A stretch of 64,000 nt of DNA from Selaginella tamariscina (lineage: Eukaryota; Streptophyta; Lycopodiopsida; Selaginellales; Selaginellaceae), in NCBI GenBank assembly GCA_003024785.1, contig PUQB01000127.1:326384-390383 (forward strand), written 5' to 3'. The position numbers and the translations under genes were made by a program. This document shows positions 9,416 to 60,392 of this stretch, piece by piece; position 1 is the stretch's first letter; each line of letters begins with the position of its first letter. Under the pieces are notes generated by a model. That model saw only the letters and a program-made list of their open reading frames with translations, searched no databases and was not told the DNA's origin.

Positions 9416-10132
9416 TATCACAAAATACTCTATAGCAATTTTATTTGTGTTATAAAGGTAAAAGTAATATATATACATGGAGAGTACTTGTATACATTTA
9501 CGAAAACAAATGCACGTCGTAACTAAATTAGGTATAATATATGAAAATGGGAATATAAAATAAATTATTAATTAATACTTAAGTTTTAGTTATTAATTAG
9601 TTATTTAATAAATATATAGTTAAGTCTTAATTATTAATTAATTAACAAATGAATCCTTGATTAACCTTACTTAGTAAAGAATATTCCTATCATCTCTCAA
9701 TTAAGTTTATTAAAATCCATAATATGTATTGTCTCTCTTCTCTCATAAAGCCTTTTGAATGCCATGTGGCAACCTTCCTTTTCAAAAATGTGTCTATTCA
9801 TAAGCCCTAAACCTAAGTTTTTATGGTTAAAGAATAATACAAAAATTCTAAGATATTTTAAGATTATTCTTTACTAAATAAGGTTAATCAAGAATTAATT
9901 TGTTAATTAATTAATAATTAAAACTTAACTATATATTTATTAAATAACTAACTAATAACTAAAACTTAAGTATTAATTAGTAATTTATTTTATATTCCCA
10001 TTTTCATGTATTATGCCTAATTTAGTTACAACGTGCATTTGTTTCGTAAATGTATACAAGTAATCTCCATGTATATATATTACTTTTACCTTTATAACAC
10101 AAATAAAGTTGCTATAGAGTATTTTGTGATAA
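9416..10132. mobile_element. Foldback derived from the left end of the E transposon family
   Basis: A long inverted repeat: arm 1 about 9416-9683, arm 2 about 9867-10132, with a ~180-bp loop. From 9510 inward, arm 1 matches the left terminus of E1 (22225) and E3 (58742): ATGCACGT.GTAACTAAA, then GAAAATGGGAATATAAAATA and the ATTAAT-rich block up to AAGAATATTCC. Arm 2 ends with the mirror image at 10038. The arms continue ~90 bp beyond the terminus on both sides, so host flank plus element end were duplicated together, tail to tail. It has no coding capacity. Confidence 0.8.
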
Positions 10133-16556: not shown

Positions 16557-19311
16557 ATGAAGATTACAACGTATAACAATAGATTGAGAAATAAAGACAA
16601 ACTCAAACTTATATTTCCTAATACTGAAAGGAAAACAGGACGTGTCATGTGATTAAATTAAGCTTAAAAAGTGAAGACCGAGTGAAATGGTGCCAAGTAA
16701 ACCCCTTGATGATACTCCCAAAAGAAAGACGGAGGGGTCACTAACTTAGTCGCATGAGGACCCTTCTCTACTCGTGTGATTCGTCATTTCCCGGAAGATC
16801 CACCACATCAAAATCTTCCACTATAGTGACGCCAACTGGACATTATTGTCGCCAAGGTCTCCATCCCGGAAACGAAGGATGTCAATTAAGAAAATGTCAA
16901 CAATGCCAATATGCGTGTCCAACTTCATCACATACCCAACAATGAATTGCACGTCCACGTCCATGGCCCCAACATTGTGCTGGTACACGTGCAACAACAA
17001 CATCAACCTCCATCAGAGCATGACCATCACCAACATGAAGTGGAACTAGAGAACATGAAGTTGCAAGTTGGAGAGGCGATGATTTATATCATTATGCCAG
17101 TCACAGAGCATCGTCATGAGTCACTAGAGCTAGTGCATGCACAAGCCCCACAAGGTCTTGACAAAATGCTTGGCCAGAACATACCTAACTTGATGCTCTC
17201 CAACATGTTAAGCTCTACATGCATCATTACAGTTGTTAGCATGCCCAAACACACTGCCAGAGTTTTAACCCGAAGGGCTAACATGTGGCAACACGTGGCT
17301 ACCAAGTGGCCTTTCGGCGTCAATTCCCTGTGTGAGCAACGCTAAGTTTACAAGATGACTTTAAGAGTCTGACTCAGATGCCTAGTTAAACAGAAGTCTT
17401 AGAGTCCTATCCTATGCCCCCTAGAATGACCATCCCTTAAACCTAAAGGATATCCTGAGTAGACTTTAGAATCCTATCTCAGTAGACCTAAACAGGCTCA
17501 TGCTCTAACCCCACAAAGGAGATGTGCTTTACACATACCCTCATGACAAAGCTAAGGCATCGTCACTTACCCCTTGAGGAATCACCCTCATTTGGGCGTA
17601 TAACCCCTTTAGGGCAACAAGGGGTACCTTGAACCACAATTAACCCTTAAGGGTTTGAGTGGTCAAGCTATACCTTAGACCTAGGGCTAGTACTTAGTGA
17701 GGGCACGAGTGTACGCCGTAGGCGAACATGAGTGTTTTACTAAGCAAACTCCCTTAGGCTAGGTTTGGATAACCCTAAGTACATGACCTTGTGAGTGCTT
17801 CATAAAAGAGCTCATGCTAACAAGCTTAAGTTGTTCAACTCCTAGATTCCAAGGAGAACACTCCCCTAGCCAAGTGTGCCTAGTTATGAGACCTAACCTC
17901 CCTTGAGCAAACGCCCAATGCTTAGCACCCTAGTGCGAGCACAAACATGCATGTTTGCTAGAGTATCCAACCCCTTGGCGACAAACCCATGACACAATCC
18001 TAAAGGGTGTGCCTTAGGCGTTGTATCGTGTGACGTTTAGCCTAGTGTCTCATCTCCATGTGATACTGCCTTCCACGATGTGGGCTATCATGCCATAGCC
18101 CTTAGATTCAAGAGTTGCACCAAGTGCCACAAACGTGGCTCCTAAATGCCAACTCTAGAACCCCTTGGTGAACTCTTAGGAACTGGTAATGTGAACCTGT
18201 CAAACAAGATCCCACGCTCATAGTTGGACAAGGACACAGATGTGTCTTGCTTAGCCATGAGTGCTACACCTAGTTTGACGTGGAGAAGGAGGTTGGAGAC
18301 AAGCCTCAACCTTTGCCTCTTGGAATGTGCATCTAACAAGACCTTCCAGGCATGGATTTGCCAACGTTAAAGGTAAGCTACCCTAAAGGTGGGACATACC
18401 CCTGCCATTTGGAAGTTAGGGCGGCACAATAGAGGGTTGTGCCTTAACACAAGCTAGAGCTTACACCGGCAGAAGAGCAACAAACTCAGTCATGAACCCA
18501 AGAGCTCTCCTATTCATACTCTACCTTATTTATGTGACGGAGCCCCGCCCCCCCCCCCCCCTCTTTTCCTGAATATGTAAGTGGGCTGGCACGAAATTAG
18601 CGAGCCCCTTATTAAGTTAATGAGAGAGTGTTTAACTTAGCCTAACTCTAACCCTAAAACCCTACCCAAGGGGGTGGGGTTTTAAGGGCGTGGGTTAGAG
18701 CAACCTTAGGGGTGTTCCTAACCCTACTAAACACATTGAACTCATTTACATTAACCAATCAGCCTAACTAGGACATCAAAATTGGGGGTGGGTTTCTAGA
18801 AGGTAAGTTCTAGCTTCGCTTAAAGTTTCTTGCAAATACCTAATGACACCCGGCCGGACTATCACTAGATACCCAAGTACACTAAGCGGGCTTTTCCTAC
18901 TACATCTAGGGTCCATCAACATAGTACAGTAGATAACAACAGTGAATGTCCAAAGTAAAGGGTCGAGTCATAGTAAAAACTATGACACACATGTTTGAAG
19001 ATCATTGAAGATCGTTTGAACATACTCCAATCCTCATAAGTTACAACGTCCAGACCATTGTACCATTGCAACACCAACCCTTAAAGACAAGTAAGAAACT
19101 TGCTCAAACACCAAGCATTATTTCACGAATGATATGTGGCGACCATAGTGAAGTGATCAAACCAATGGTACACATCATTCCCAGGATTTTCACTCAAGAA
19201 ATCCAGTCGGACGTGAGAATTTGCAATAAAAGCAGGAGTAGTACCATGGGTTGTGAACGCCAGCATCAATTGAGAGTGATTGTTCAGTTGCATCCGCATG
19301 GCATCCAACAA
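16557..19311 (-). pseudogene. Element A gag remnant, split by a solo LTR
   Basis: The minus-strand frame at 19123-19311 reads VRLDFLSENPGNDVYHWFDHFTMVATYHS, a gag-type start. The coding sense resumes left of the solo LTR (17114-17254: LNMLESIKLGMFWPSILSRP) and runs toward protease. It is full of frame breaks. Confidence 0.6.
17255..18987 (-). mobile_element. Solo LTR, family G (copy 1)
   Basis: 1733 bp, minus orientation, beginning TGTCATAGTTTTTACTATGA and ending ...CTCTGGCA. Flanking 5-mers are cacac (left) and cacat (right), a near-perfect target duplication. A second copy lies at 34711-35669. It includes a long C run (18546-18560) and no ORF of note. The first ~20 bases form their own small palindrome. 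Confidence 0.8.
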
Positions 19312-20826: not shown

Positions 20827-22224
20827 AACTAGTATCAAAGCAAGGTTCGAGACGAGTGACTAGTGGGAATGAGAGGATTAATACCAATGAAGAGTGGATA
20901 AACAAGAAAATCGTGATCAAACTATACGCTATGGTGAAAGATTTAAAACAATTTCAAGAGTATGTGAATGGCTCATTGGAGGTGATTCCTGAGCAGTTGG
21001 ATACTATTGAAGATTAGCTTGCTCAAAAAATTGTGGTGGTAAGAGCCAAGTATTGGATCGTCTTTGTGTTCCATTTTTTTTGGCAAAGAATCTGCAGATG
21101 AGGTTATGAGTTGGTTGGAGATAGCAGCAAACTTGCTTACTGCACAAGGAGTGACTACCGAGCAATCTATGATAGCTATATCAATGGTCTTAAAAGATAA
21201 AGTTGCGAGGTGGTGGACACACATTTGAAATCAGTTCAATTAGCTCATTAGGAGATGATTGCAACTTGAAAGGAGTTCTCTAAGCTATTTAAGAAGGTGT
21301 ACACTCCTGAGTTCGATGTATTTCATGCAAGACATGAACTATAACACTTACAGCAAGGAAAGATGACCTTGGACGACTACATTGAGAAGTTTCTAATGTG
21401 TTTGCCAACCAACAGAAGGATTATTTTAAAAATGGAATATAAAGTACTAACTTGCATAAACATCTTAACTCAATAATTCAATTTAAGAATTTGGAGTAGC
21501 TGTTCGAGTATGCTTGCTTGCTAAATATGAGGAGAAGGTTTTTAAGGAGAACGAGTGACATGGCAAGAAGTTGTGGTAGGATCACCTCTCCAAGTCCTCA
21601 TGAGCACCATGAGTATAGAGGGAATAGAAATCGTGCTAAGCCGAAGTCCAAGCTAGTGGCCTTTAGTTCTTATCACACTAACAACTGACATAATAAGATT
21701 GTTAAGGTGTTTGATAACGAACGTTGTCACTTGTATGGAGAGGTGGAAATTAGAAGGCAAATTGTCCAAAGAGAAAACATCCAAGGGTAAAAGTTTTAAT
21801 GGTGGCAAGGACAAGGAGATGCCTAAGAAGCTTTAAGAAATGGAGCATGGAGAGGAGCACAAGGGAGATAACTCTAAAATGTGAGATAAATTTTTGTCTC
21901 TTCTTGCTTGACAAGTAAACTGCATGGCACAGGAGGAGCCACACACACGTGCTATTGTGGTGAAGGGACAACTTGGTGGATGTTCAATGCAAATCCTCTT
22001 GAATAGTGAAAGTAGTGATAACTTTATGTCAGCAAGTGCCAGAGTGTAGCTTGCCCATGAAGATTGTGCCTCAATATGAGATTGAGGGCTCAACTACTGT
22101 CACATAGAGCTAGAATGCTTGTTGTGGTGGAGTTACAGCTAGAGGTTGGCAAAACCTAGACTTTCTTTCTTGTAAAGCTAGTGCATATGGATCTCATCCT
22201 TGGGATGAGTTGGTTGGAGCGTGT
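20827..22224 (+). pseudogene. Element B gag and protease start
   Basis: Gag pieces: VTSGNERINTNEEWINKKIV and YTPEFDVFHARHEL..LQQGKMTLDDYIEKF. A CCHC-like knuckle follows near 21720. The protease starts near 21980 with a degraded LLDSGSSDNFM-type site and ends LVHMDLILGMSWLERV, cut by E1. Several stops are present. Confidence 0.75.
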
Positions 22225-22252
22225 ATGCACGTTTGTAACTAAAGTGGGCATG
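22225..22252 (+). repeat. Left terminal inverted repeat of E1
   Basis: Pairs with 38304-38330; one extra T and two substitutions in 28 bp. The same end recurs at 58742 (E3) and in both arms of the foldback (9510, 10038). Confidence 0.9.
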
Positions 22253-22491
22253 ATACGTGAAAATGGGAATATAAAATAAATTACTAATTAATACTTAAGT
22301 TTTAATTATTAATTAATCATTTAATTAATATAATTAAGCCTTAAATATTAATTAATTAATTAATCCTTCAATAACCTTACTTAGTAAGGAATATTCCTAA
22401 AATATCTTAGAATATTCATATTATTCTAAAAATAGTTTACAATAATGAAGAAATACTATCAAACATAATTACAAATGAAATCATTTTCTTA

Positions 22492-23686
22492 TCAACATGT
22501 TAATTTTTTTATAAATACTTTCTTCCTATCATACAAAGAAATCTTCATTTTGTCTAAATCATCACTCTCCGGATTAATCAAATCATTTTGGTCAATATCT
22601 TGATGTTGTTGCCACCACTTAACACTCTCACGAATGCAATTGGGAGTTGCCATCCTTGTTAATACATAAGATGTGATAAGAGAAGGTCTGCATAAAGGCT
22701 CATCTAAAAACTGACGTTCCTTAAGAATAATATTATAAAGCGCCCGGTTGCTATCCTTCATTTTATAAAATTCAATATCACGAGAAAGAAAAGCTTCAGG
22801 AAATGTATGATACGGTGGATACTGCTCACAAAAATTTTCGAGATTCTTCTTTCTGAGGCACGTATCCAAGTAGTTCACTAGCTCATCCATGATATCGGTA
22901 TCAGAATATGGATCGAAAGTGATTGGATGAATACAAGCAATGTTTTGGTTGAGCATAGCCTTCTGAGGAGAGTCGTCTACTACTAACATCTGTGCGTTCT
23001 TCATTATCCTTAAGCGACTGATCTCCCCATGAGTCCCAATTATTCTTTCATTCTTGAAGAAGTACGGCTTGCTTTCCTTTCTTATATTGTGAAATTCGAG
23101 AGGTTTATAACATATTCGCTGGTCAAAAATCCAATCTTTACGAATCACCTCTTCTGCAACACTACAATGTTTCTTAAGTAAATTCAACAGCGGTGTTAAG
23201 TTATGAATCTGCATGCATGACCAAATCCCCACAAGCGCACCCATCTCCTTAAGCTTTTGAAAGAGACGATCCAACCCTGGACGAAAAATAATATCATATC
23301 GAAATTTACCATGACAAGGAATGAAATCTCCTTGTTTGATTTCTTTTTTCTATCTCGGGCCTTTGTCGATGAAGCAGAACACCATTGACATCCAACAACA
23401 CAATATGGCCATGAGTAACATGAGATAGCGTTGCCTCTTGAATACTTTGCAAATCACTTGTTTGCTCCCTTTCACATTTATCCGTTGCCACTATCTCGTT
23501 GCCTATCCCTTCATCATTTAATTGTACATCATCCTTACAAGATTCAGATATTGCATGCGCTGAAGAAATTGATTTCGGAATTGAAGCCAATAAAAATGAT
23601 GATGAAGTGGCCCCCATGGTAACGATGTTTTGAGCTGCATTATTATCCATTTCCTGCATGAACTCTGTCATTCTGACATGTGGCAC
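22492..23686 (-). CDS. HAD-superfamily (FCP1/NIF-type) phosphatase carried by E1
   Basis: Predicted phosphatase of the FCP1/NLI-interacting-factor fold. Motif I is GHIVLLDVNGVLL (about 23371-23400): the nucleophile Asp is present, but the second Asp of DxDx(T/V) is Asn. Then RPGLDRLFQKLKEMGALVGIWSC (motif II, Ser) and, after an insert, MLVVDDSPQKAMLNQN (motif IV, acidic pair), followed by ITFDPYSDTD..MDELVNYLDTCL. The N-terminal ~100 residues are low in predicted structure. Start is 23686, or Met at 23650. One frame change lies near 23345 (after HRQRPE); copy E3 reads through there (RPEDRKKEIKQGDFIPC), so the family gene is open. Transcribed in the same direction just downstream of the ParB-like gene, with a 230-bp gap. 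Role in the transposon unknown; a captured host phosphatase is the simplest reading. Confidence 0.75.
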
Positions 23687-23915
23687 AAGAAATTGTCGCC
23701 AAACCCCTCTTTACCTCATGCAATGCTGAAAATCCATGTTCTCAATTATTTCATTACATCTGCAAAATGATAATTAGCTGACCTTAATATATTAAATAAT
23801 TGTGTGACCCATGTTTGAACTAAAAGCTTCATTAATCCTTGAGAATTTATTTTCTGTACAAATATAAAAGAAATATACAAAAATGCCTTATGTTATACTC
23901 ATTTACAACTATTCA

Positions 23916-26900
23916 TCACTCTAAATTCATTAACAATTCTTCTTCGCTATTACCTTCTGAGTGAGGCGAAGAAGGTCTAAGCCGCTTGTGAGATGGTTCA
24001 AGATCTTCTGCATCTTCTATTGATGTTTCCATGGGTCCTGGAGTGTGCGAATGTTCTGTACTCCTCGAGATAACTTCCGGTCTAATATCTGATTGAAGTT
24101 CGTTCTCAGACTCCGAGATTGAACCAGATTCACCTTCAGAGCTATCGCACTTATCTGGAGGGAACTTTCTCAAATACGCCTTTATGGATTCGTTGGGGTA
24201 CTCAGTTGAGACCCAATCTATCCACTTGTTCAGGTCCTCAACCATGGTCTTATCCTTTTCAACGGCAAACACACATGTATGCCGAAGGTAACACTCCTTC
24301 AAGACGGACCCCCTAGTGCAGTAGTCAAAAACCCACGCATCACTGTGAGGACCCCTGATCAAGTTGACGATGCTCCGTGCCGCTTGACTTGTAATGTTTG
24401 GATAACGTACATTGCCGAATACGTCACTCACCTATCGGTGTATCGGATGGAGGTTCAGGGCCGTTGGAGTGCAAACAGATGCCTGGCCAGTCATTTGGAA
24501 GCTTGAAATTGTTTGGCGCATTCCTAACAACCAAGTGAACAACGTATCAATGCACTTGGGATTAGCATCGTTCATATAAAATCCTGTCCAACGATGTCTA
24601 TTCTTCTTGGCGAAGGCGAAGGCAAAAGTATCGGTGACATGAGCAAGAATCAAGAAATAAATACCTGAAAAAGTAGGTATCAGTGAAGAGCGCAAGCATG
24701 AATTCAATAATAAATACCTTCTATGTATATGCTTGCACGGCTAAGTTTCTCCACCAGATCCTCTAGTGCCCTATCTGTCGAAAGATTTTTTGACACCCGC
24801 CGATCCATCACGAACAATTGAAACGGTTTCCTACAAGCAGTGATGTTACCCCATAAAGTCTCCGAATCTAACAACAAACATCTGTAGGGCTTGTCGTGAT
24901 TCGTAGCATCCTCCTTTATAAGGTTCAATTCGGTTCTCCGCTGCTGAAGGACTGCCATAAGAGAAGGCGTCATCCCAATGTTCTCCTTTTTGGCGTTGGC
25001 GTGCAATAGATTCTTGCCTAGATCTTCCGATTGGTTCACCCATTCGACAAGCATATCATCGTTCGTCACATGCAAATATTTGCTGACCTCTTCATATGTT
25101 GAAGTCGAGGTCCAACCCAGTTTGTGGCAGTGTATTCCCAACCACTCCTTGAAATGCCTGACCGTCTTCAACTCCATTGCCTTGAGATGAAAAGGAGAGG
25201 TTGGGCTGCTGTTATTAATTTGTAGTTTGCCATCGATCACCAAATCAGCCAAGACTTCCATCTCCTCCATCGTTGTTCCATTTAAAGGCTTCAACCATGT
25301 GAGCTTGAAATCGTTGTCTACATCCTTTGTAGATTGAACAGACTTAGCCTTCGGCGTCTTACTGGGTTTCTTTGCAGACTTTTCTGAGGGCTCCCTTCAC
25401 TTGTCTGCTTCTTCTTCAGTGTTCCTTTTGAAAAGGATTCCATAATCCCCAACCATTTGGCAAAGATCCTATCTTCGGGGCAAGAAATCAACATCATCAG
25501 AAAGGATGTTTCCTTCCCGCCCACCTGGGCAAAAATCAACTGCTGCAATTTCTTCAACTCTCTGAGGAAAAAGACAGATTAATATACCGGCGAGATAAAT
25601 CCCGCCCAAACAATTTGCTTACCCGGTATTCCGCAGATTGTGTATTCCCTGCGGTAGCTCTTTGTGGTCGCTGAAGAGATTCCCACACGGCTCGCGTGTG
25701 TTTAAACTTCTCCCATATTTTGCTGTTGTAGTGGTTGGTGTCGGCAGCGTCCCATTCCGCCGATAACTTATGGTACTGCTCGATTGTGAGATTCGGCTTA
25801 GCTAAAAACGCCGATCTTTTTGTCAGCTTCTCACGGGTATGCTCGGAAAGTTTTGTTGCCATCGTTCCTTTGTTGTGTTCTCGAGAAGTCGTTGGGCTGC
25901 CGTTATTGTGTGCTGGCCACTAATGATGTAGTACTTGATAGATTTTTATTCTCCGTCTGAATCTTCATGAGTTGTTCTGGTGTTGTGATCCAGACTTTGT
26001 CAGCGCCCTTCCTTCTTTCATAGTATGGACACAAAACAGCATTATGTGGAACGGTATAAGAATTGTCGTCCTTCATCTTCTCCATGAGCTCAGCTACACG
26101 TTCCTGGTTGAGTGGCCTGTAATTGAAGTTTGGGTTGACGCTGCAATATTTAACCCTACAAGGATAAATCTTATCATCCAACATCATTTCCTTGTGACTT
26201 ATTGCAGCATGAGATGCCACAGGTGCAGCTGACAAAACGATTGATGATTTTCTTTTGCGATCCGAATCAACATGTGTGATCCCCGACTGCAGCTGTTCTA
26301 GTGTTCTCGGCACACTCTTCCAGCTCCCGAAGCTTCCTAAGCAAATTGAACGTGATCTGTAGAGAACCTGAGACCGAGCCACCTCTCAATCTCCTTATGA
26401 TGTCGCTGTGTTCTTCTTCAATGTGAAGAGGGAAGATTGCTCCACTTGCTGATTTTCTGTATTGTGAAGCAATATCTCCTGACAATACACCTACTCGATG
26501 AGTCTGAAGATCTTCGAAGTAGACATCCAGATGGATCCCCTCCATAGATGGGCTTTCGTTGAGTTGAAGAAGAACTCCAAGGTCAACATCATTAGTGAAC
26601 ACGTGAACGTCATTATCCACAAGTCGACAAAACCACCCGAAATTAATGTTGTAACTGACGACCTCTGGATCCGAGAACGTGACATTGGATGGAACAAGGC
26701 ATATCTGTCGAGCATCGTCCAATCTGGGTTCGCAGCCTGCTTTCGGGTGCTTGACTAGCGAATCTACTTTCCATTGTTTTGCTTGTCCATGAGATGTGAC
26801 AGAGGTTAATTTGACAGCACCATGGTTGCTCCAATGCGCTTCCCATTTATCTTAAAATATGGCCAAGTTGATTCCAGAATCCCCCTGCCCATCTCTTCTC

Positions 26901-27019
26901 CTGCTCTTGTCTTTAATGTCACCTCAATTCCACATCTGAATACAAAAATGATTAGTTCAAGTATCCGAGTATAACAGATTTTATTTTAATTCTTACCCAG
27001 AATTTGACGACGACTCCAT
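23916..27019 (-). CDS. Long E1 protein with ParB-like segment and methyltransferase-like motif (several frameshifts)
   Basis: Start ATG 27019 (MESSSNSG), a short first exon with donor GGGTAAGA, next exon from about 26935. Introns near 25622-25563 and 24717-24666. Segments in order: an unassigned N-terminal region (CGIEVTLKTRAGEEMG..., NINFGWFCRLVDNDVHVFTNDVDLGVLL). A ParB/Srx-like stretch: VKYCSVNPNFNYRPLNQERVAELMEKM (about 26085-26165), then YYIISGQHTITAAQRLLDE (about 25890-25935). A Lys/Ser-rich linker. A region with HFKEWLGIHCHKLGW and YFLILAHVTDTFAFAFAKKNRHRWTGFY. Last, DAWVFDYCTRGSVLKECYLR with VFAVEKDKTMVEDL (about 24280-24342), which looks like SAM-methyltransferase motif I of beta-type N4/N6 enzymes. 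No DPPY is seen: the expected place reads LLLDSETLWG. Tail acidic/Ser-rich. At least five single-base frame breaks; E3 reads through several. About 900 residues if intact. Confidence 0.6.
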
Positions 27020-27360
27020 ACTAATGACTCGATCTCCTTGTTTGATCAAATCGTCCTTCTGCAAAATAATACACTATAAATAAATTATATAAAAACGCAC
27101 ACACACTTGTATAAACCCGAATATACAAAAATAATACACAGAGAGAAGTAGACGTAATTAACTGTCCGAAGCTCACATTTGTGTTAGTGCAAAAGAAAGA
27201 TAACATTTCGTTTTAGAACCACCACAAATGTGAGCTCTGGACAGTTTTACATAGATTCCTAGCTTTTACTCGAAATATTATGATAAGATGATAAAAGTAA
27301 ATAAAATGAGATATGCAACTTATATATACTAATACACATATATATTCACATGGAAGGTGC
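27020..27360. promoter_or_regulatory. Upstream region of the leftward E1 genes, with a hairpin
   Basis: Holds an inverted repeat, arms 27162-27183 and 27223-27244 (CTGTCCGAAGCTCACATTTG against its near-perfect mirror), loop about 39 bp. It lies 140-220 bp upstream of the predicted start at 27019, between the gene and the first palindrome array. It may be a promoter or operator structure; function not shown. Confidence 0.5.
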
Positions 27361-28952
27361 GGCGGGATTAATCTCGCCACCCCTTCAATGCCTCCTGAAA
27401 GAGTGGGCGGGATTAATCTCGCCACCTTTCTGGAGGCCTTGAACGGGAGTGCGGAATTAATCTTGCCACCCTTCTCGGTCTCAGAGAGAACTGGGCAGGA
27501 TTTATTTCTCACACCCCTTCAGTGACTCCAGAAAGGAGGCGGGATTAATCTCGCCCACCATGTAAGGGATGGTTAAATGAATTTCCCCACCCTTCCCATT
27601 CTCTCCATTGGTATGTTGTAAACCTTCTACGTCTCAGACAGAAACGTTTGGGATTGGTCCGACTCACCAATGGAGAAAAAAGAAGGGTGGCGGGATTCAT
27701 TCCTCCAACAGGCATTGAAGACTCGGCGGGATTAATCCCGCCGCCCAGGGCCTTCACTCGGTCCCTATGCGGCGGGATTAATCCCGCCGGACGCCAATTC
27801 CCTGCGCGGAATCGGGCGGGATTAATCCCGCCGCCTAGGCACTTCAGGCAGGCCAATGGCGGCGGGATAAATCCCGCCCGATTCCGCGCAGGGAATTGGC
27901 GTCCGCGGGATTAATCCCGCCTCCCAGGCCCTTCACTCGGGCCTTAGTCGGCGGGATTAATCCCGCCGAACGCCAATGCCCTGTGCGAAATCTTGCGGGA
28001 TTAATCCCGCCGCCTAGGCCCTTCAGGCAGGCCAATGGCGGCGGGATAAATCCCGCCCGATTCCGCGCAGGGCATGCGTACGCGGCGGGATTAATCCCGC
28101 CCACCATGTAAGGGATGGTGAAATTAATCCCACCACCCTTCTCAGTTCCCTCCATTGGTATTTTGTAAACCTTCTCCGTCTCAGACAGAGTTAGTCGGGA
28201 TTGATTCAACATACCAATGGGGAAAAGAAGGTGGCGGGATTAATCCGCCACCGGGTAATGAAGGTTCGGAGAGACTAATCCCGCCGCCCTCTCGTAAATC
28301 ATGCGCTCACACATATATATTGGCTGCGGCATTTTGAACAGGGATGGGTGGGGGCGGGATTAATCCCGCCGCTTATATCCTGCGGAAGTGCCTGAGCGGC
28401 GGGATTAATCCCGCCGCTCCGCGAAGGGATGAGCGGGGGGGATTAATCCCGCCGTTCATGTCCTGCGTGAATTCCCTGGGCGGCGGGATTAATCCCGCCG
28501 CCTTACGCGCAGGACATGTCATGCAGGCTCTTCGGTTTTAGCCTTCCGTGCAGGATCTTTCATGCAGGCTCTTCGGTTAGCCTTCCGTGCAGGATCTTTC
28601 ATGCAGGCTCTTCGGTTAGCCTCATGAGCGGCGGGATTAATCCCGCCGCCCATCCCCTGTAAATGCCCTGCGCGGAATCCATCGGGATTAATTCCATCCA
28701 TTAGGGCATTCACATAGGCCATTGCTGGCGAGATAAATCCCGCCGCATTCCGCGCAGGGCATGGGTGAGCGGGGATTAATCCCGCCGCTCTTCGGTTTGT
28801 CCTAGAGCGGCGGGATTAATCCCGCCGCCCATAGCCTGCGTGAAGGGCCTCGGCGGCGGGATTAATTCCGCCGCCATGGCCCCAATTATATAGCGGCGGG
28901 ATTAATCCCGCCGCCGAGGCCATAAACCTATAGCGGCGGGATTAATCCCGCC
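27361..28952. repeat. Palindrome array 1 of E1
   Basis: About 29 units (counted by eye) of the perfect palindrome GGCGGGATTAATCCCGCC and close variants (ATAAAT core, one- or two-base changes). Examples start at 27725, 27771, 27815, 27861, 27904 and 27950, i.e. 43-46 bp apart. Spacers are partly related (CCCTGCGCGGAAT, CAGGCCAATGG, CCTTCACTCGG). Some neighbouring units form larger inverted pairs, e.g. 27783-27900. Open frames here give only GGINPA / GLIPP repeats and are artefacts of the palindrome. Confidence 0.95.
28516..28625 (+). repeat. Short tandem repeat inside array 1
   Basis: Three imperfect copies of a ~41-bp unit (catgcaggctcttcggtt ... gccttccgtgcaggatcttt), inserted between two palindrome units. 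Confidence 0.85.
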
Positions 28953-28979
28953 GCTCGAGGGCTTAGCGTGTGTGCGAGA

Positions 28980-29033
28980 GAAAAAATTAATAAATAAAAA
29001 AATTATACAGATAAAAACACACACATATATATA

Positions 29034-29080
<47 letters not shown>

Positions 29081-29459
29081 TGTGTATGTATGTATGTATG
29101 TATGTATAAGAGTGTACGTGTGTGTGCAAGAGATAGATAAATAAATAAAATTATACAGTACTGGTACACATAATAATGTGTGTGTATATATATGTGTATA
29201 TGTATATCGTGTGTTGCGTATGCTGTGAGCGAAACAAATAAAATCATACAGATAAACAAACACACACACACACATATATATACATAGGAGTGTGTGTGTG
29301 TGCGAAAAATAAAACTAATAAATAAATAAAATTATACAGATAAACACACACATATATATGTGTGTGTATATAGATATATAACCCATAGAGAAAGAGAGAG
29401 AGTCTGTGAATATATAAGCATATATAAACTAGTGTTGTATACTATTTGTTAATATGTAT

Positions 29460-29491
<32 letters not shown>

Positions 29492-29920
29492 GCAGTGTGC
29501 GTGTGTGTGGGAGAGATAGATCAATAAAAAAAAATTATATAGATACTGGTACACATAATATATGTATGTATATATGTATATAGGTATATATATATATGTG
29601 TATATGTATATTGTGTGTATGCGTGTGTGAGCGAAACAAATAAAATCATACAGATAAACAAACACACACACACACACATATATATATGTGTGTATATAGA
29701 TATATAACCCATATGAATATATAAGCATATATATAAACTAGTGTTGTATACTATTTGTTAATATGCATTGATTATATATTATATATATATATGTAAAGCA
29801 GTGTGGGAGAGATAGATCAATAAAAAAAAATTTATAGATACTGGTACACATAAAATTATACGCACACTCTTATACATATATACATACATACATATACTCA
29901 CACACACACACACACACAGA
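28980..29920. repeat. TG/TA microsatellite region of E1
   Basis: Long (TA)n and (GT)n / (AC)n tracts with a recurring 'aaataaaattatacagataaacacacac' type segment. Tyr/Ile/His-rich open frames on the minus strand are microsatellite translations, not genes. Confidence 0.9.
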
Positions 29921-31101
29921 TCTCACCTGTGTGCACAGCCGCCGCCGCCGATTTCACAGCCGCCGCCTCTTGAAACCCTAAGAATATACCTAAACCCTAA
30001 AGGAATTAAATATATATATTAACCCTAATAGAATATTCCTTCTGAGAATATACTTAAACCCTAAAAAGAATAAAATATAGATTCGCCCTAAACGAATATT
30101 CTTTCATTATATTATTAGCGCGTGCGTGTGCGTGGGTGTATCACATACACCCCAAAAATATAAATCATGCAGGGATTTAACATGTGTGTGTCCATGAGAG
30201 TGTTAAAGTTTCATGTGTATCAATACATACATACACATTGCATATATTAATACACATAATATATACATACACACATGTATACACACAGACATACATACAT
30301 ATTACATGGGTTTAGGGTTTAGGGTTTAGGGTTTTGGATGGATCATGCATGATGTGTATGTATGAGAGAAGAGAGAGTGTTGAAAAATTTTTTGTACACA
30401 TTGCATATATTAGTACACATATATACTTACACATATTATACACAGATATACATACATAGTATATGAGAGAAAAGAGACAATACATATTATGGATCATGCA
30501 TGGTGTGTATTATACACACAGACATATATACATATTAGTACATAATATTAGAGACCGAGTACATATTATAGATCATGCATGGTGTGTATGTTTGAGAGAA
30601 GAGAGACAGTACATATTAACATGGATCATGCATGGTGTGTATGTATGAGAGAAGACAGAAAGTACACATATATACATACAGAGTACACATATATACATAC
30701 ACACGTGTATACACACAGACATACATACATATTACATGAGTAAATTCATTGTGTTACATATTAGGGTTTAGGGTTTAGGGTTTAGGATGGATCATCCATG
30801 GTGTGAAGAGAGAGTGTTGAAAAATTATTTTTGTACACACATGTATACACAGGGTTTAGGGTTTGCTCCCAACAAGCTTAATATAAATATTACACATGTA
30901 AATTCAATGTGTTACATACACACAGATTGAGTACATATATCATACATGCGTTGAACATGATGTTTTCAATAAAGAAGCAACATATTTCTTCAGTTTGGTT
31001 TAGGGTTGTGCATGTGTGTGCATATGTGTTTTTGTAAGTTCTTGTAATGTGTGTGTAAATTATGATTGTATTTATATATGTGTACAAAACAAACATCGAA
31101 T
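29921..31101. repeat. Mixed low-complexity region with telomere-like and 'gatcatgcatgg' repeats
   Basis: Interstitial TTTAGGG-type runs at about 30307-30334, 30765-30785 and 30849-30862. An imperfect repeat around 'ggatcatgcatggtgtgtat' plus 'gagagaagagaga' recurs at about 30338, 30481, 30570, 30627 and 30786. No gene. Confidence 0.75.
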
Positions 31102-32160
31102 AATTAAGAAAATAATATTAATAAACACACTATGAACATATTTTAAATTATACATAATAATATATGATTTTATCTAATATATAGCCATATATAGTTTTAA
31201 TAATATATATTAATTTAATATTGATAAAAAGGTTTAACATTGAAATATTCTTGAATAATAAGAAATTAATTGAGAAAATCCCATTAATATATACAAATGT
31301 AAATTAAGTACTCAAATAATTAACTAAATTAATTATCATAATCATGTTTAATATTGGAATATTCTTGGAATAATAAGAAAATAATAAAGAATATCCCATT
31401 AATATAAAGAAGATTAATTACTCAAGTAATTAAGAAAATGATATTAATATACACACTATGAACATATTTTAAATTATACATAATAATACATCATTTTATC
31501 TAATATATAGTCATATATAGTTTTAATAATATATATTAAATTAATATTGAAATAAAGGTTTAACACATGAATATTCTTGAAATAATAACAAATTAATTGA
31601 GAAAATCCCATTAATATATACAAATGTAAATTAAGTACTCAAATAATTAACTAAATTAATTATCATAATCATGTTTAATATTGGAATATTCTTGGAATAA
31701 TAAGAAAATAATAAAGAATATCCCATTAATATAAAGAAGATTAATTACTCAAATAATTAAGGAAATGATATTAATATACACACTATGAATATATTTTAAA
31801 TTATACATAATAATACATCATTTTATCTAATATATAGTCATATATAGTTTTAATAATATATATTAATTTAATATTGATAATAAGGTTTAACACATGAATA
31901 TTCTTGAAATAATAACAAATTAATTGAGAAAATCCCATTAATATATACAAATGTAGAATAATTACTGCAATAATTAAGAACAAGACTAATTTAATTATGA
32001 TAATCAGGTTTAATATTAGAATATTCTTCAAATATTAATAAAATAATAAAGAATATCCCATTGATACTAGGAAATGAAAATAAATACTCGAGTAATTAAG
32101 AAAATAATAATAATAAACAGACTATGAATATATTTTAAATGATACATAATAATATATCAA
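31102..32160. repeat. Tandem repeat of ~326 bp, just over three copies
   Basis: Units start at about 31102, 31428, 31755 and (partial) 32094, each beginning 'aattaagaaaat.atattaat'. AT-rich and noncoding. The same sequence borders array 3 in E2 (58200-58555, reverse), so it is a resident part of the element. Confidence 0.85.
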
Positions 32161-32781
32161 TTTATTTATTGTATAAGTATATATTTATATATATATATAA
32201 TATAAAATACTTGAATATTAAGAATGTAGAATATAGTTTAAAATTTCGTAATATTAAACAGCTTGAATCACTTAAATAACATTAAATGCAATTTTAAAAT
32301 ACTCATTGGAACTGGAGAGTATATATGTCAGAGTGTCGGATATTTGTGTCAACTCATCTTAAATTTTATTTTCTGTTCTTTTTAAAAAATTTGAATTTCT
32401 GACATATGTATTGTCGGTCTGACATGTAAATTTGAAAATGCATTTAATTTCCCACTTAAATTCAGATCTGGTTCTTTCTCCGGCAAGGGTTTCTTCATTT
32501 CTGTATTTTTCACTCTTTAGATCTTCTTTTTTCTTCATAATGATCATCTCAGGAGTGAGATTAAATTGGGTGCTATTCTTTATAGGAAAGCACGGCGCCT
32601 TCAGTGCTGTTTACAAGTATTATAAACAAATTTAAAAATACTTATAAAGATTCATCTCTTACATTCTCTCTTAAAATTACAATTTAGGGGTTTAGGAATG
32701 CATTAGGATTATAATATATTCCGTTAGGGATTTATCCCGTTTAAATATCCTTTTAACTTAATATTCTAGGTTAACCGGAGC
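32161..32781 (+). promoter_or_regulatory. Conserved leader region upstream of array 2
   Basis: AT-rich DNA, then a less AT-rich block (about 32400-32640) with 'cagatctg..tctttctccggcaaggg' that is conserved in reverse in E2 at about 57830-58020. It may hold the promoter, leader or first exon of the rightward gene. Its 67-codon open frame is not kept in E2. Confidence 0.45.
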
Positions 32782-33593
32782 GGCGGAATTAATCCGGCCA
32801 TTTCTTTTTCGCCTCTTCGAAGAGGTGGCGGGATTAATCCCGTCACCATCTTTCGGGCAATGCTTCTCCGCCACTGAAAAGAGTGGCGGGATTAATCCCG
32901 CCGATAACCTTCTCAACTGATGAAGAGTTACCAGAATTTATTAAAAAGAGTTGTCGGCGGGATTAATCCCGCCAACCATTTTAGGAGGCAGGGAAGGGGT
33001 GGCGGGATTAATCTCACCACCACATCCCTGTTTTAAGGATTTGGGGACAGGATTTATCCCGAGATCTCTTTGAAATCATAGTTTTGGAGAGAGTTATGTG
33101 CGGGTTTAATCCGCCACCCATTCCCCGTCGTAAGAATTGTGGGCAGGATTAATCCCGCCTTGGACTCCCTCTGACAAGGAAGAGCCGGCGGGATTAATCC
33201 GCCGCCTCTTCCTCCTCGGGGGAGTCCGGCGGGATTAATCCCGCCGACTCATCCTCGCTGGAGAGAGTCCGGCGGGATTAATCCCGCCGACTCCCCCCAG
33301 AGGAAGAGGCAGCGGGATTAATCCCGCCGGCTCTTCCTTGTCGTAGGGAGTCCAAGGCGGGATTAATCCCGCCATTCTCTCCGACGAGGAAGAGAGTCGG
33401 CGGGATTAATCCCGCCGGACTCCCCCCGAGGAGGAAGAGGCGGCGGGATTAATCCCGCCGGCTCTTCCTTGTCGAAGGGAGTCCAAGGCGGGATTAATCC
33501 CGCCGACTCTCTCCGAAGGGTTGAGTCAGCGGCGGGATTAATCCCGCCGACCGTTCCTCGTCGGAGGGATTCGTGGGCGGGATTAATCCCGCC
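32782..33593. repeat. Palindrome array 2 of E1
   Basis: About 18 units of GGCGGGATTAATCCCGCC or near variants. Examples start at 33228, 33271, 33311, 33356, 33399 and 33576, spacing about 40-46 bp. Spacers (gaggaagag, ctcttccttgtcg, cgacgagg) differ from those of array 1, so the palindrome and its spacing are shared but the filler is not. The array ends 150 bp before the transposase exon. Confidence 0.95.
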
Positions 33594-33741
33594 CATCAGT
33601 TGTATTAATCAAACATGAGATATTATCTCTAAACATAATTATGTATTATTGCATATGCATATTATTAAGTAACCGTAATTCAGATTTCTTAGAAATATTG
33701 CATAAACAGATATTATAAATAATACAATTATTTATGTGCAG

Positions 33742-36700
33742 GACAATATGTTTAATACTGGAGATAAAGTATGTCTTCTTCGGAACAACGAGATAGTTGG
33801 CACTGGAACTGTAGAAGTTCGAGATAATAATGCATCATGTCACAATATTGCCCAAGGATCTTGTGTGTACGTATGGGTGAACACCATTTACAAGCATGTT
33901 GAGGTTCTGGGAATGGAATTTGAGGAGGGTTCTCCTGTATTGTGGAATTTGGATGAAGTCAAGGCTGACACAGAATATGCAGAGTCACAAACAAATAGTA
34001 GCACGAGTTTACTAGATGATGGCTTGCCTGCTGTGATGGATGAGGTGATTCTCTTTCTTCGTGAGATTGAAGTCGGAAGAGGCATCATCACAGCTATAAA
34101 TCCAATGGAAGCAGTGTCAGAAGAGAAACTAGGGTCTGACTTCGTAGGTGTAGTTGTGATAGAGGTTTCACCTAATGGCAAATTGTATCCTGGATCCCTC
34201 GTGAGGTGGCGAACATCTGAATTAAGACGGCAAGATGGTTCAACATATTCTGGGTTGGATTTCAATAATAACAACCTGGAAGAACAACTCATATTTGAAG
34301 AGGTTCCTTGCATTGGTCCTATTGTAAGAAAAAGGCGATTCATGGGTTGTAGATCTTCCCCTGCAAGTTTCAGCAAGAGGGTAAAGATGGATCTTACATC
34401 TTCCGAAAGTGTTACGAGCATTTCCACGATTGACTGTTGCAAGAAGAAGTGTTGTCAGATGGCAGACCGGAATGAAATTACCCAATGTAGACATGTCTTT
34501 TGTATGCTCACCCAAAAGCAAAGGCATGAGTTTGTATATGTTGCACTAACTGGGTGTATTGATGGAATGGCCTCGGACACAGGTTATCAGAGTACATCCA
34601 TGGTATTTAATAAGGTGGCCATCTGCTTCAAAGCTTGGTACAGTATATACGGGATCCCAAAGACCACGTTCTACCGTCGGAGGGATGAGTGGCTAGATGG
34701 AGCGCGAACCTGTCATAGTTTTTACTATGACTCGACCCTTTACTTTGGGGTTTGACTGTTGTTACCTACTGGATTATGTGACGAACCCTAGATGTAGAAG
34801 AAACAGGCCCGCATAGTGCACTTGGGTATCTAGTGATGGTTCGGCCGGGTGTCGTTAGGTATTTGCAAGAAACTCTAGGCGAAGCTAGCACTTCCATTTA
34901 GAGAACCCTCCCCCATTTTGACGTTCCAGGTTAGGGTTTTTAGCTGATTATAGCTTGTCAAAATAAGGGTTAGGGACACCCCTAGGGTTGACCTAACCCA
35001 CGTCCTAAACCCCCCCCCCTAGGGGTTAGGTTTAGGATTAGGTTAGGACAACCATTTTCTCTAAGGGCTGGCATTTCCGTGCCAGCCCACTTACTCATTT
35101 AGGTAAACAGGGGGGGGGTCCGTCACATAAATAAGGTAGAGTATATGTAGTGAGGCTTCCTGGGTTCAAAAGAGAGCTCGTTAACCCTACCGGTGCAAGC
35201 TAAGCTTGTGTCGTCAAGGTGCAACCCTCTGTTGTGCCGCCCAAACTTCCACACGACAGGGGTACAACCCACCCTAGGGTTAGACTATCCTTATCGTTGG
35301 CAGGATCTTGCCTTTGAGACAAGGGCACGTCACTTCCAAGGAGTTAGCCAGATTCCTTGGTCCGAAAACCTGCTCGCAAGCTCAAAGGTATTGCCCGAGT
35401 TCACGTTCTGCAGAACTAGTGGTTGAGGCCTTGCTCCGGCCGCCTCAACCACGCCAAGCTAGGAACAACACCTATAACTCGGCCAATCCGTGCATCCTGA
35501 TTTACAAGGTGAGTCTCGTTCGTGGACTTGGTCAGTTAGGGTTTAAGTTCCTAAGGGTTGGGTTCCTAATACGGGTTACTTTACCAGATTTTGTGGGGTT
35601 TCCAGAGAGGGGATTCCAGGGTTGGCACCTGGCAAGCCGCCTTTGTGGCACCAGGTAAAAACTCTGACAAACCTCAATTCATGGGAACACTCGCTTGGTC
35701 AAAACCCGCTCTCACATCATGGCAGCCATAGAGATACTCAAGGCTTTTGTGGAAGCAAATGCAGACAGGATGCCTCACAAATGCCGAACCACAAATGCAG
35801 GGGTTAGGGAAAATCTCAAGGTTTTGCCTTCAATCTACACTCAATTGAAGCTGTGTGAACATGTGAACAAGTGCCTCAGTTTGATGGGGCTCCAAGCAAT
35901 CTGCACTGGTACCTTCAACAACATATGGAATACTCATTTTAAGGATGTGGAGATTGCAAAACACTCTAGCTTTCCAAGTGTGACACTTGTACATCATTGA
36001 AGGCTGCAGAGGCTTGTGCAAAAACCTTGGTGGAGATCACTGCCATTCAAAAGAAGATGGAGGCCCACATGATTGCACAACAAACTTGCCGGTCTCAGTA
36101 CTATGCACACCACATGCTTTCTGTGTCACGCCATCAGAGTACCTGTGCTTGATCCATGACAAGATGGATCATTCAAAGACCAGCATTCCAAAGCTCTTTG
36201 CAAACACCAAAGTGCCTTGGAAATGTCATGAAACTTCCGATTTCATTAACAGGTGTGCTAACACGTGGACACGGTTGTGAGTCATATGGACACTTTTCAC
36301 TTCCACATTGGTATAGCGACTCCAATTTCACTATTGGGTCGTTGGCCATGTGTTTCAGAAACCTTGAAGCCCACTCACAGACAAGTCCTATCAGTGATCT
36401 CAAAGTGAAGAAACAACACCTTCAACCTTTACATAATGCTCTCATGAACACGTCTGCACTTGAGGCTACTTGGGAATATGAGAGGCATTGTCAACAGCCT
36501 GCACAGAAAACAAATGGCCCTATTGAGAGTTTGCTTCAGTGGAGGGATCTAGCTCAAATAGTGTACATGTGTCCTCAACATCAAATAAGCTTCCTCGTCA
36601 TTTACTTTTACAGATGGATAATTGTGCAGGCGAGAACAAAATAGGTAAATCATTTTACTTAAGGGTTTCTCAAGCTCATACTTACTTTTATTTTCTAGAT

Positions 36701-37730
36701 ATGTGCTAGCATACTTGTCAATGCTTGTTGCCAAAGGTGTGTTTGAAACAATCACGCTCAGTTTCCTTATGTTGGTCACACTCATGAAGATATTGATGCG
36801 TTCTTCAGCAAGGTCTCCAACTCTACAAAAAGGACAAGTGCACTTACCTTACCGCATATGATGAATCTTTTTGAAAATTGCATCTCCAAAAAAGTTGTGC
36901 TTTGCTTGTGACTGAGGTGCCAGACTTCAAAAAATTTCTCAAGGAGTATATAAAAGAAGGGAGTGATTCTTTAGTTGGTCACCTTGTGCCGTTACAATTC
37001 TTTTTCTCCATACGAGATGGTATACCTATTATGCAGTACAAGTTACGGCCATCAGAGCAGGAGTGGTTACCGAAAGAGGGCTTAATGCTCTTCAAAAGTG
37101 GAGAGGATGGAAAGCCACTTCTTCCCAGAAGGACAACCAGACCCTATTCCATTGAGTGCCCAGCTCAAGGAACAAGAGGTTATTATTGATTGCATCGAAA
37201 AATATGTGGCATGGGTTCAAAAATCGATGCCAAAGAATTCTGATAAGGCAACTGGTTACTCAGAACTATATAAGCATGTGGTCGACTATTGGGAGACTGT
37301 TGTTCGAGAGTTGGAAGGGCCTATTGTCACAAGTACAGAATTGCAACACCCTTTCTGGCCTACAACAAGGTGGCGAGAGGAGATTGAAATGACATCACTG
37401 AGCATAGACGACATAGAAGCCAGTAGTGATGTGGAAGTGCAAACCCCACACTTTATTGGACAAAGGAACCAAAAACCTAAAGCATACTTTGATTGTTGCC
37501 AGGATCTTCAAAAACTAATGATGATTCTCATTACTCCAGATGCGTCATATAATCAGCCTATTTGGATGGGTCAAATTATCGACACACCTGAAGTAATCAC
37601 AAAAAATAGTATTGTTAAGGTTGCATGGTTCAAACCACAAAAAAGGCGACACGAGAAGGAGAGCGAAAGATATAATGGATGCCTAGAGAAAATATGGTTT
37701 CCCAATCAAAAAGCCCAGCATGTTTTATAA
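33742..37730 (+). pseudogene. E1 transposase-like gene (DUF7869-type), broken by a solo LTR and frameshifts
   Basis: Exon begins after acceptor tgtgcag at 33741; the first Met in frame is 33748 (MFNTGDKVCLLRNNEIVGTG). Segments: an N-terminal domain of unknown type; a Cys-rich zinc-type stretch DCCKKKCCQMADRNEITQCR..FC (about 34430-34505); ICFKAWYSIYGIPKTTFYRRRDEWLDGART, then the solo LTR. It resumes at 35670 with FVEANADRMPHKCRTTNAGVREN and LPSIYTQLKLCEHV, then KCDTCTSLKAAEA. Candidate catalytic residues: KMDHSKTSIPKL (about 36160-36190), LPRHLLLQMDNCAGENK (about 36592-36642), an intron with acceptor near 36698, YVLAYLSMLVAKGVF and GHTHEDIDAFFSKVS (about 36775-36820). The C-terminus ends near 37730. 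This order matches what I know of DUF7869 proteins, common in mobile DNA of fungi, protists and early plants. Two homopolymer deletions (35971, 36131) are absent from E2. Confidence 0.75.
34711..35669 (+). mobile_element. Solo LTR, family G (copy 2), inside the E1 transposase
   Basis: 959 bp, TGTCATAGTTTTTACTATGA...CTCTGACA, shorter than copy 1 (17255-18987) but similar along its length, including the G run near 35110. Flanked by gAACC / AACC; removing it with one AACC joins the transposase exon (GART to the following SWEHSLGQNP). Confidence 0.85.
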
Positions 37731-38303
37731 ATGTTAAATCCATTCGATATGGGTGGATGTCAAGAAGCGTTGATAAAGTCACGATTAACAAAACTGCAAG
37801 GGAATGTATGTTTTCTGAAGCTTAAAGCAATTACAAAATTATAAAATATCATATTTAATATTCATAATATTATAAACTCTTTAATAATAGTATCAAATTG
37901 TATACTTAACTATATAAATTTAAAAAATGATATGGAAGATTGACTATATTATTATAGGATTTTATATATATTATTATTACTACTACAAATTTTCAATTAA
38001 TAATGTTATATTTAAATATTAATATTTTAATAACAACATCAATATTTATATAATGTACCTCTTATGCTCTTCCTTAATTGTTATATTAGGCAATATATTA
38101 TATAATTTAATACCTTCTACTTTTATAATGTTATTAATTTTTTTTCAATGAATGCTATAATTTATTAAAGGGTAGAATACAAAATAGAATATTCTAAAGA
38201 ATATTCTATTTTCAAACATATATTCTAAAGAATATTCCTTTAATATTAGAAAATGCTAATTAAATAGCTAAAATTGCTAATTATTAGGAAATGGAACTAT
38301 AGC
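37731..38303. other. AT-rich right subterminal region of E1
   Basis: Noncoding; similar to 41820-42400 in E2. Holds several AAAGAATATTC / GAATATTC motifs, also found near the left end (22390-22410). Confidence 0.7.
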
Positions 38304-38330
38304 CATGCCCATTTTAGTTACAACTTGCAT
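38304..38330 (-). repeat. Right terminal inverted repeat of E1
   Basis: Reverse complement starts ATGCAAGTTGTAACTAAAAT. The same right end occurs at 42420 in E2 with about 270 bp of similar AT-rich subterminal DNA before it. Confidence 0.9.
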
Positions 38331-38334
38331 GTGT

Positions 38335-40650: not shown

Positions 40651-42420
40651 ACTAGTAGAAAAGAGATGGCCCTCTTGAGAGTTCTGGTTCAGTGGAGGGA
40701 TCTAGCTCAAATAGTGTACATGTGTCCTCAACATCAAATAAGCTTCCTCGTCATTTGCTTTTACAAATGAATAATTGTGCAAGCGAGAACAAAAATAGGT
40801 AAATCATTTTAATTAAGGGTTTCTCAAGCTCATACTTACTTTTATTTTCTAGATATGTGCTAGCATACTTGTCAATGCTTGTTGCCAAAGGTGTGTTTAA
40901 GACAATCACGCTCAGTTTCCTTATGTTGGTCACACTCATGAAGATATTAATGCGTTCTTCAGCAAGGTCTCCAACTCTATAAAAAGGACAAGTGCACTTA
41001 CCTTACTACATATGATGAATCTTTTTGAAAATTGCATCTTTAAAAAAAGTTGTGCTTTGCTTGTGACTGAGGTGCCAGACTTTAAAAGTTTCTCAAAGAG
41101 TATATCAAAGAGGGGAGCGATTCTTTAGTTAGTCACCTTGTGCTGCTACAATTCTTTTTTCCATAAGAAACGGTATACCTATTATGCAGTACAAGTTACG
41201 GCCATCAGAGCAAGAGTGGTTATTGAAAAAGGACTTAATGCTCTTCAAAAGTGAAGAGGATGGAAAGCCACTTCTCCCAGAAGGACAACCAAACCCTATT
41301 CCATTGAGTGCCCAGTTCAAAGAACAAGAGGTTATTATTATTGATGGCATCAAAAAATATGTGGCATGGGTTCAAAAATCGATGGCAAAGAATTCTGATA
41401 AGGCAATTGGTTACTCAGAATTATATAAGCATGTGGTCGACTATTGGGAAACTATGGTTCAAGAGTTAGAAGGGCCTATTGTCACAAGTACATAATTATA
41501 ACACCCTTTTTGGCCTATAACAAGGTGGTGAAAGGAGATTGAAATGACATCACTGAGCATAGATGACATAGAAGCCAATAGTGATGTGGAAGTGCAAACC
41601 CCACACTTTGTTGGACAAAGGAACCAAAAACCTAAAGCATACTTTGATTACTGTAAATTATCGACACACCTGAAGTAATAACAAAAAATAGTATGGTTAA
41701 GGTTGCATGGTTCAAACCACAAAAAATGTGACATGAGAAGGAGAGCGAAAGATATAATGAATGCCTAAAGAAAACATGGTCTCCAATCAAAAAGACCCAG
41801 CATGTTTTATAAATGTTAAATCCATTTGATATAGGTGGATGTCAAGAAGCATTGATAAAGTCACGATTAATAAAACTGCAAAAGAATGTATGTTTTCTGA
41901 AGCTTAAAGCAATTACAAAATTATAAAATATCGTATTTAATATTCATAATTATAATAAGCTCTTTAATAATAGTACCAAATTGTTTACTTAACTACATAA
42001 ATTTATAAAAAGATATGGAAGATTGACTATATTATTATAGGATTGTTTTATATTATTATATATTATTACTAGTACAAATTTTTAATTAATGTTATATTAA
42101 ATATTAATATTTTAATAACAACATCAATATTTATATAATGTACCTCTTATGCTCTTCCTTAATTTTTATATTAGGCCCATACAATCTTAAATATAATATA
42201 TTATATAATTTAATACTTTCTACTTTTATAATGTTATTAATTTTTATTCAATAAATGCTATAATTTATAAAGGGTCAATTACAAAATATAATATTCTATC
42301 TTCAAACATATATTTTAAAAAATATTCCTTTAATATTAGAAAATGCTAATTAAATAACTAAAATTGTTAATTATTAAGAAATGGGACTATAGACATTCCC
42401 ATTTTAGTTACAACTTGCAT
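40651..42420 (+). mobile_element. E2 transposon, right-end portion
   Basis: Matches E1 from about 36505 to 38330: transposase exons with the LPRHL..MNNCA-type site, intron, YVLAYLSMLVAKGVF, C-terminal exon (41184-41495: MQYKLRPSEQEWLLKKDL), AT-rich tail and right TIR ending ACTTGCAT at 42420. It is more decayed than E1, with a ~60-bp gap after AYFDYC. Its other part continues at 55837 on the minus strand, exactly where the homology stops here. Confidence 0.85.
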
Positions 42421-56850: not shown

Positions 56851-56993
56851 ACATAAATAATTGTGTTATTTATGATATCTGTTTATGCAATATATCTAAG
56901 AAATTTGAATTGAAGGTGCTTAATAATAGCATGAGCAATAATACATAATTATGTATAGGTATAGATTATCATGCTTGATTAATATAACTGGTG

Positions 56994-60149: not shown

Positions 60150-60392
60150 GGTAACGATGTTTTAAGCTGCATTATTATCCATTTCCTGCGTGAACTCAAT
60201 TGTTTCATTACATCTGCAAAATGATAATTAACTGACCTTAAAATTATCAAGGTATATTATTTACTTTGTTAATGTGTGACCCATGTTTAAACTAAAAGCT
60301 TCATTAATCCTTGAGAATTTATTTTCTGTACAAATATAAACGAAATATACAAAAATGCCTTATGTTACACTCATTTACAACTATTCGTCACT

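Follow-up and report, generated by a model that had tools for sequence, protein, structure and literature searches.

In a 64,000-nucleotide stretch of the Selaginella tamariscina genome (contig PUQB01000127.1, positions 326,384 to 390,383; hereafter the window), a DNA transposon of 16,106 bp at positions 22225..38330 carries an 18-bp perfect palindrome, GGCGGGATTAATCCCGCC, in two arrays, each in front of one of its genes. Our reading, to which we assign a probability of about one half, is that this is a giant and recent Sola-like plant transposon whose ParB-like protein would bind the arrays and control or de-silence the element. Inside the element, one DUF7869 gene, the putative transposase gene, runs rightward, and two cargo genes run leftward, namely a ParB-like gene (cargo 1) and a NIF-type phosphatase-like gene (cargo 2). 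The arrays were absent from the original prediction, which a model had made from the DNA letters and which described a transposon with a transposase plus ParB-like, methyltransferase-like and phosphatase cargo.

Palindrome arrays upstream of two genes

The window copy contains 22 exact palindromes and 39 sites at two mismatches or fewer, a threshold at which each of 30 shuffles gave none. Array 1 (27361..28952) comprises 23 such sites, the first lying ~340 bp upstream of the start codon of cargo 1 (27019), and array 2 (32782..33593) comprises 15, the last lying ~150 bp upstream of that of the transposase gene (33748). The spacer between them (28953..32781) holds microsatellites and tandem copies of ~327 bp (31096-32247), and a single degenerate palindrome (25589..25606) sits in the intron between the ParB-like exon and the next exon. 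With sites of up to four mismatches counted, 29 of the 42 neighbour distances in both arrays fall at 40-46 bp. Across copies of the element, the distance from the arrays to the start codons of cargo 1 and the transposase is fixed and the number of sites is variable; an older copy (~80% DNA identity) retains degenerate palindromes. Altogether, the arrays look like a built-in control switch in front of two genes.

A search of the genome assembly (300.7 Mb in 1,391 contigs) revealed 27,128 exact copies of the palindrome, compared to none of the reversed control. The conserved unit stops sharply at 18 bp, with identity falling from 0.89 inside the site to 0.33 beside it. A simple tandem-duplication origin of the arrays is ruled out, since the linkers are not conserved. 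The same boundary bears on an explanation in which the arrays are selfish or structural repeats, such as hairpins or a source of small RNAs, that have no specific binding protein and multiplied through slippage and conversion. It would fit the matches in inverted orientation between parts of the arrays and the variation of site number among copies, but slippage or conversion would preserve the linkers, and we consider it improbable.

Elsewhere, the 18-mer was found in 49 stretches among 84,980 prokaryote genomes and once in viral contigs. The Prevotellaceae metagenome-assembled genome Cus372_bin5 has it once in each of nine contigs, perhaps as an unrelated repeat family or by chance. In the openly licensed literature, GGCGGGATTAATC was not found, the inner 12-mer alone appearing in one paper, and palindrome arrays of this kind were found nowhere.

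The palindromes might instead be E2F-type sites through which the host would activate the element in cycling cells. A single mismatch separates each half, GGCGGGAT/ATCCCGCC, from the degenerate E2F consensus WTTSSCSS, the arrays are promoter-proximal, and transposons of Brassica have reportedly amplified E2F sites. On the other hand, conservation extends over all 18 bp of the palindrome, its central TTAA included, rather than over a half-site, and the consensus wants TT where the palindrome has AT. Altogether, we regard a host E2F origin as unlikely, although less so than the structural-repeat explanation.

The ParB-like and phosphatase-like cargo genes

Cargo 1 (23916..27019, minus strand) encodes a protein of ~800-1,000 residues in four coding exons, which were placed from reading frames and splice signals; the frames are broken in the window copy. 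Its ParB_N-like domain (PLNQERVAELMEKM ... YYIISGQHTITAAQ) lies at 25870..26190 on the minus strand. Profile-profile comparison with a single set of 14 ParB sequences from bacteria gave, in two template frames, scores of 28.9 and 30.7, which are not calibrated E-values, against shuffle maxima of 17.3 and 18.0, so that none of 60 column shuffles reached either score; the alignment pairs ParB boxes including YYIISGQHTITAAQRL. The ParB-like cargo named in the original prediction is thus borne out as a ParB_N-like domain.

The methyltransferase-like label fared worse. A tract at 24215..24890 (minus strand), which forms one leftward gene with the ParB_N-like tract, resembles a beta-class DNA methyltransferase by eye, the order of its parts following that of the beta-class enzymes. 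Compared to one set of ten bacterial N6/N4 methyltransferases, its profile score was reached by 1, 18 and 8 of 60 shuffles in three template frames, which is at or near chance, and the resemblance is therefore statistically unsupported. A spliced sequence of 773 aa from one copy, in which the N-terminal part of the protein is missing, contains no [DNS]PP[YFW] motif. If the tract does have a methyltransferase fold, its sequence suggests that it is probably inactive.

Cargo 2 (22495..23671, minus strand) encodes an NIF/FCP1-type phosphatase-like protein of the HAD class, in line with the phosphatase first proposed. Its frame is broken in the window copy and open over 402 aa in another copy. Pfam NIF was matched at 3.7e-9 (36.9 bits) by the window open reading frame (ORF) and at 4.8e-12 (46.3 bits) by the other copy, both above the curated cut-off of 21.8. 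The HAD catalytic motif is DxDx(T/V). The first HAD motif of cargo 2 reads DVNGV, with the second acidic residue replaced by N, and so departs from this motif, which makes phosphatase activity uncertain. A protein search with cargo 2 yielded 1,948 candidates, none of them significant.

The bacterial relatives of the ParB-like cargo protein work on palindromes close to the genes that encode them, which makes this protein the best candidate reader of the arrays. The same choice is favoured by a study of the brown alga Ectocarpus, whose authors suggest that proteins of this kind may bind the transposon that encodes them and modify it epigenetically (PMC12477816). We propose that the protein would recognise the 18-bp palindrome and load on both arrays, each array being a putative element-encoded operator read at both promoters by an element-encoded dimeric DNA-binding protein. 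By analogy with the VANC proteins of VANDAL elements, such loading might control the transcription of the transposase gene and of the ParB-like gene itself, or free both from host silencing. The phosphatase-like protein might aid on the host side, for instance at RNA polymerase II or chromatin, although this step is weakly grounded. The arrays would give an otherwise unexplained ParB cargo a concrete candidate ligand. If the proposal is true, a eukaryotic transposon has turned a site-loading protein of bacteria to controlling or de-silencing itself, in parallel to the VANC system by an independent route. A broader version, in which a parS-like system with the ParB-like protein on promoter arrays turns the 27,128 dispersed sites into a genome-wide self-recognising regulatory network, bacterial in type though in a eukaryote, is less likely than not.

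Several observations weigh against control of the element by its ParB-like protein. The half of the palindrome resembles an E2F site, and a host factor could therefore read it. For the ParB-like cargo HMMER detects neither a protein family nor a homologue or PDB relative at significance, the profile scores being uncalibrated as noted, and its structure model is uninformative (predicted local distance difference test score, pLDDT, of 33). One of the 11 C1 palindrome clusters is not near any listed element part. In the stretch read of a diverged copy, C1064, there is no array upstream of the cargo gene, an argument against the arrays being deeply conserved; this copy has one palindrome site with four mismatches in the same cargo intron, which may be chance, and shares 50-58% identity in one exon and 36% in the ParB-like stretch. 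Finally, a deletion derivative on C633 has both ends and a target-site duplication and no arrays, and the arrays are therefore unnecessary in cis for transposition.

This derivative, with zero sites, also argues against the arrays being transposase-binding enhancers or repression sites, as does the lack of any palindrome site at the termini of the nine elements read. Many transposases bind repeated internal sites, and array 2 adjoins the transposase gene, in favour of such a role; we nevertheless find it quite unlikely, somewhat more so than the E2F explanation.

Further searches with the cargo returned nothing firm: a protein search with cargo 1 gave 7,649 candidates, none at an E-value of 0.001, and searches of PHROGs, NCBIfam and PDB sequences gave no significant match. 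PHROG 21535 (E 0.076), neuroblastoma suppressor chains (0.41-0.54) and p27 chains (0.06-0.45) were taken as chance.

The closest described element found is Sola1-1_Ec32 of Ectocarpus, a Sola-1 element of 21.5 kb in which a ParB-methyltransferase gene runs counter to the transposase gene (PMC12477816). It resembles the Selaginella element in being a giant DNA transposon with an opposite-strand accessory gene that bears a ParB-like domain, and differs in its predicted N4-methylcytosine/N6-methyladenine (4mC/6mA) methyltransferase domain, for which the corresponding tract here is unsupported and lacks the catalytic motif. As far as Sola1-1_Ec32 is described there, the land-plant host, the NIF-type gene and the promoter palindrome arrays are new. 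The original prediction had known of no pairing of a DUF7869-type protein with ParB-like and HAD genes; the ParB plus methyltransferase precedent answers this only in part. In the same paper, the transposase gene of giant families is frequently predicted to be pseudogenised, and Iyer 2011 and Petroll 2025 are cited for green and red algae (PMC12477816). Only this paper was relevant by title when the openly licensed literature was searched for ParB, transposable element and land plant together. Giant transposons with ParB-like cargo are known to us from algae only, whereas the present family would account for a large part of a land-plant genome.

Two other systems and the ParABS system invite comparison. 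ParB-parS shares with the element a ParB_N-like domain and palindrome clusters near the gene of the protein. However, no segregation function is implied here and no helix-turn-helix or CTPase role is claimed; among the ORFs scanned with Pfam, which were a part of all ORFs, none matched ParA. VANDAL elements are MULEs, and we know of no ParB domain in VANC21. According to the VANC21 study (PMC5735166), VANDAL21 likewise has non-coding motif arrays of copy-variable number and an element-encoded accessory protein, so that an array-reading design exists in plants; its 9-bp motif falls short of a perfect palindrome, and binding was demonstrated there, whereas we infer it here. KDZ and other fungal transposons with TET/JBP genes are also DNA transposons with a DNA-modification accessory gene (PMC12730594). 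They differ in both transposase and cargo.

Transposase, insertion site and class of the element

The left terminal inverted repeat occupies 22225..22252 (plus strand) and reads ATGCACGTTTGTAACTAAAGTGGGCATG from 22225, and the right one, matching it, occupies 38304..38330 (minus strand) and reads ATGCAAGTTGTAACTAAAATGGGCATG as the reverse complement ending at 38330. The two repeats of the window copy are imperfect, and the termini read ATGCA. They are flanked by the target-site duplication GTGT at 22221..22224 and 38331..38334. Once the flanks are joined and the element removed, the host gypsy frame SWLERVDSKIK is open again. Moreover, when a 120-mer of the joined flanks was compared with the genome (623 first-look candidates), 40 of 40 scored matches crossed the junction, with 87-91% identity, which indicates that the element inserted, duplicating 4 bp, into a host sequence that is itself repeated. 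The limits of the element, supported by its termini, duplication, same-ended copies and these empty sites, thus stand as originally drawn, and the empty sites together with the many copies rule out an assembly chimera or a single odd copy.

The transposase gene (33748..37730, plus strand) has two coding exons where open, and is split by an insert and by frame breaks. DUF7869, the only Pfam match, was found at 5.2e-47 on a read-through from another copy and at 3.8e-4 on one window ORF. The genome has 300 DUF7869 matches (150 of 4,249 candidates scored), and 53 homologues of the protein were collected. Across 16 sequences D486 and D681 are invariant and D639 nearly so, the third catalytic aspartate having been chosen by its position in the structure model. 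A Foldseek search with this model gave a best E-value of 0.035 and nothing at or below 0.001, and a VIA-align comparison revealed a DDE/D transposase fold. As modelled, the DUF7869 protein therefore folds like a DDE/D transposase, with an RNase H-like fold and three aspartates, which agrees with the rightward transposase-like gene first described. No relatives were found in the viral contigs searched, and no mention of DUF7869 in the openly licensed literature.

By its features, the element is best placed near the Sola superfamily. Bao et al. reportedly defined Sola in 2009 by a 4-bp duplication and a transposase whose RNase H-like fold holds three catalytic aspartates. The former is seen in six of eight two-ended elements and at the empty sites, and the latter in the modelled D486, D639 and D681. 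Other classes were rejected: CACTA/EnSpm elements have CACTR termini and a 3-bp duplication, against ATGCA and 4 bp here; Mutator/MULE elements have an 8-11-bp duplication and a MULE transposase, against 4 bp and a Pfam match to DUF7869 only; Helitrons have neither inverted repeats nor a duplication and encode RepHel, against the inverted repeats and 4-bp duplication here; and KDZ elements duplicate 8 bp rather than 4 bp.

The window copy is not intact, its transposase gene being split by a nested insert at approximately 34712..35669 and frame breaks affecting both transposase and cargo genes. None of the other copies covering this position has the insert. It is a separate repeat with related copies at 18359-18987 and near other elements, and a 5-bp overlap at its junction suggests a 5-bp duplication.

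A young family and its copies

The 20-bp core of the ends, TTGTAACTAAARTGGGCATG, has 1,591 and 1,566 exact matches in the genome (3,157 in all), compared to none for the reversed-pattern control. Within the first 100 places listed, 38 neighbouring pairs on the same contig are no more than 20 kb apart; 23 of the 38 face inward, 20 of these 23 join a G-type to an A-type end, and 18 of the 23 span 13.7-15.7 kb. The left 401 bp matched over its full length at 98% or higher in all 40 loci scored out of 1,990 candidates, the window copy included, and 30 of 30 left-end loci, again with that of the window, share one terminal start, with similar flanks in 3 of the 30. One 301-aa exon of cargo 1 is 100% identical in all 131 scored copies, the best of 5,742 candidates, which points to a recent expansion. 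The family is young and high-copy, with element sizes of 14-16 kb. As a rough inference from the end counts, ~1,600 element equivalents of ~14 kb would make up ~7% of the assembly, an estimate lowered by deletion derivatives and raised by mutated ends. An older relative at C633:241662-250748, with ~80% DNA identity, indicates that the lineage has long been in the genome.

Eight two-ended elements, consisting of the window copy and seven regions fetched around DUF7869 hits, measure 3.4-16.1 kb. Six have a perfect 4-bp duplication (GTGT, AAGG, CTCT, AATT, TATG and TTAG), with no target motif seen across the six, and two (C982 and C722) have none. DNA of the whole cargo region is present in five of the eight, and internal deletion took parts of it in the other three, so that the only copies among these that lack cargo genes are same-ended internal-deletion derivatives. 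Four of the five cargo-complete copies (window, C869, C982 and C852) also retain the whole transposase region; in the fifth, C1182, the transposase gene is missing its 5' part. With the end counts, these copies uphold the proposed cut-and-paste family with a defined gene set.

The three losses would suit a view of the ParB-like and phosphatase-like genes as passengers that were picked up by chance and do nothing for the element, and plant transposons do capture genes. The perfect protein identity of the cargo 1 exon speaks against this, as does the ParB-like-domain gene described in the Ectocarpus Sola-1 element (PMC12477816), and we think such a passenger status improbable.

The window holds further pieces of the family. 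What had been called a partial copy, E3, is not one collinear copy: a minus-strand fragment (55831-58551) stands beside a plus-strand left-end fragment (58742-62535), the latter having the two cargo genes in the same order and no transposase. At 9504-10044, two left ends stand face-to-face with flanks that are inverted rather than direct (ACAA/TTGT) and no duplication, which is a rearranged or foldback derivative, and a truncated right-end copy at 40657-42420 has its own right terminus, followed by TATG.

The NAM family is plant-specific. NAC/NAM genes gave 50 exon-level matches in the genome, in keeping with the land-plant host first supposed, and none in 14 control genomes, a control of little informative value, the named ones being prokaryotes. 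In addition, 4731-6304 and 45541-47121, ~40 kb apart, are linked by successive inverted repeat pairs, most of them 99-100% identical; these are probably two young, oppositely oriented copies of another mobile element.

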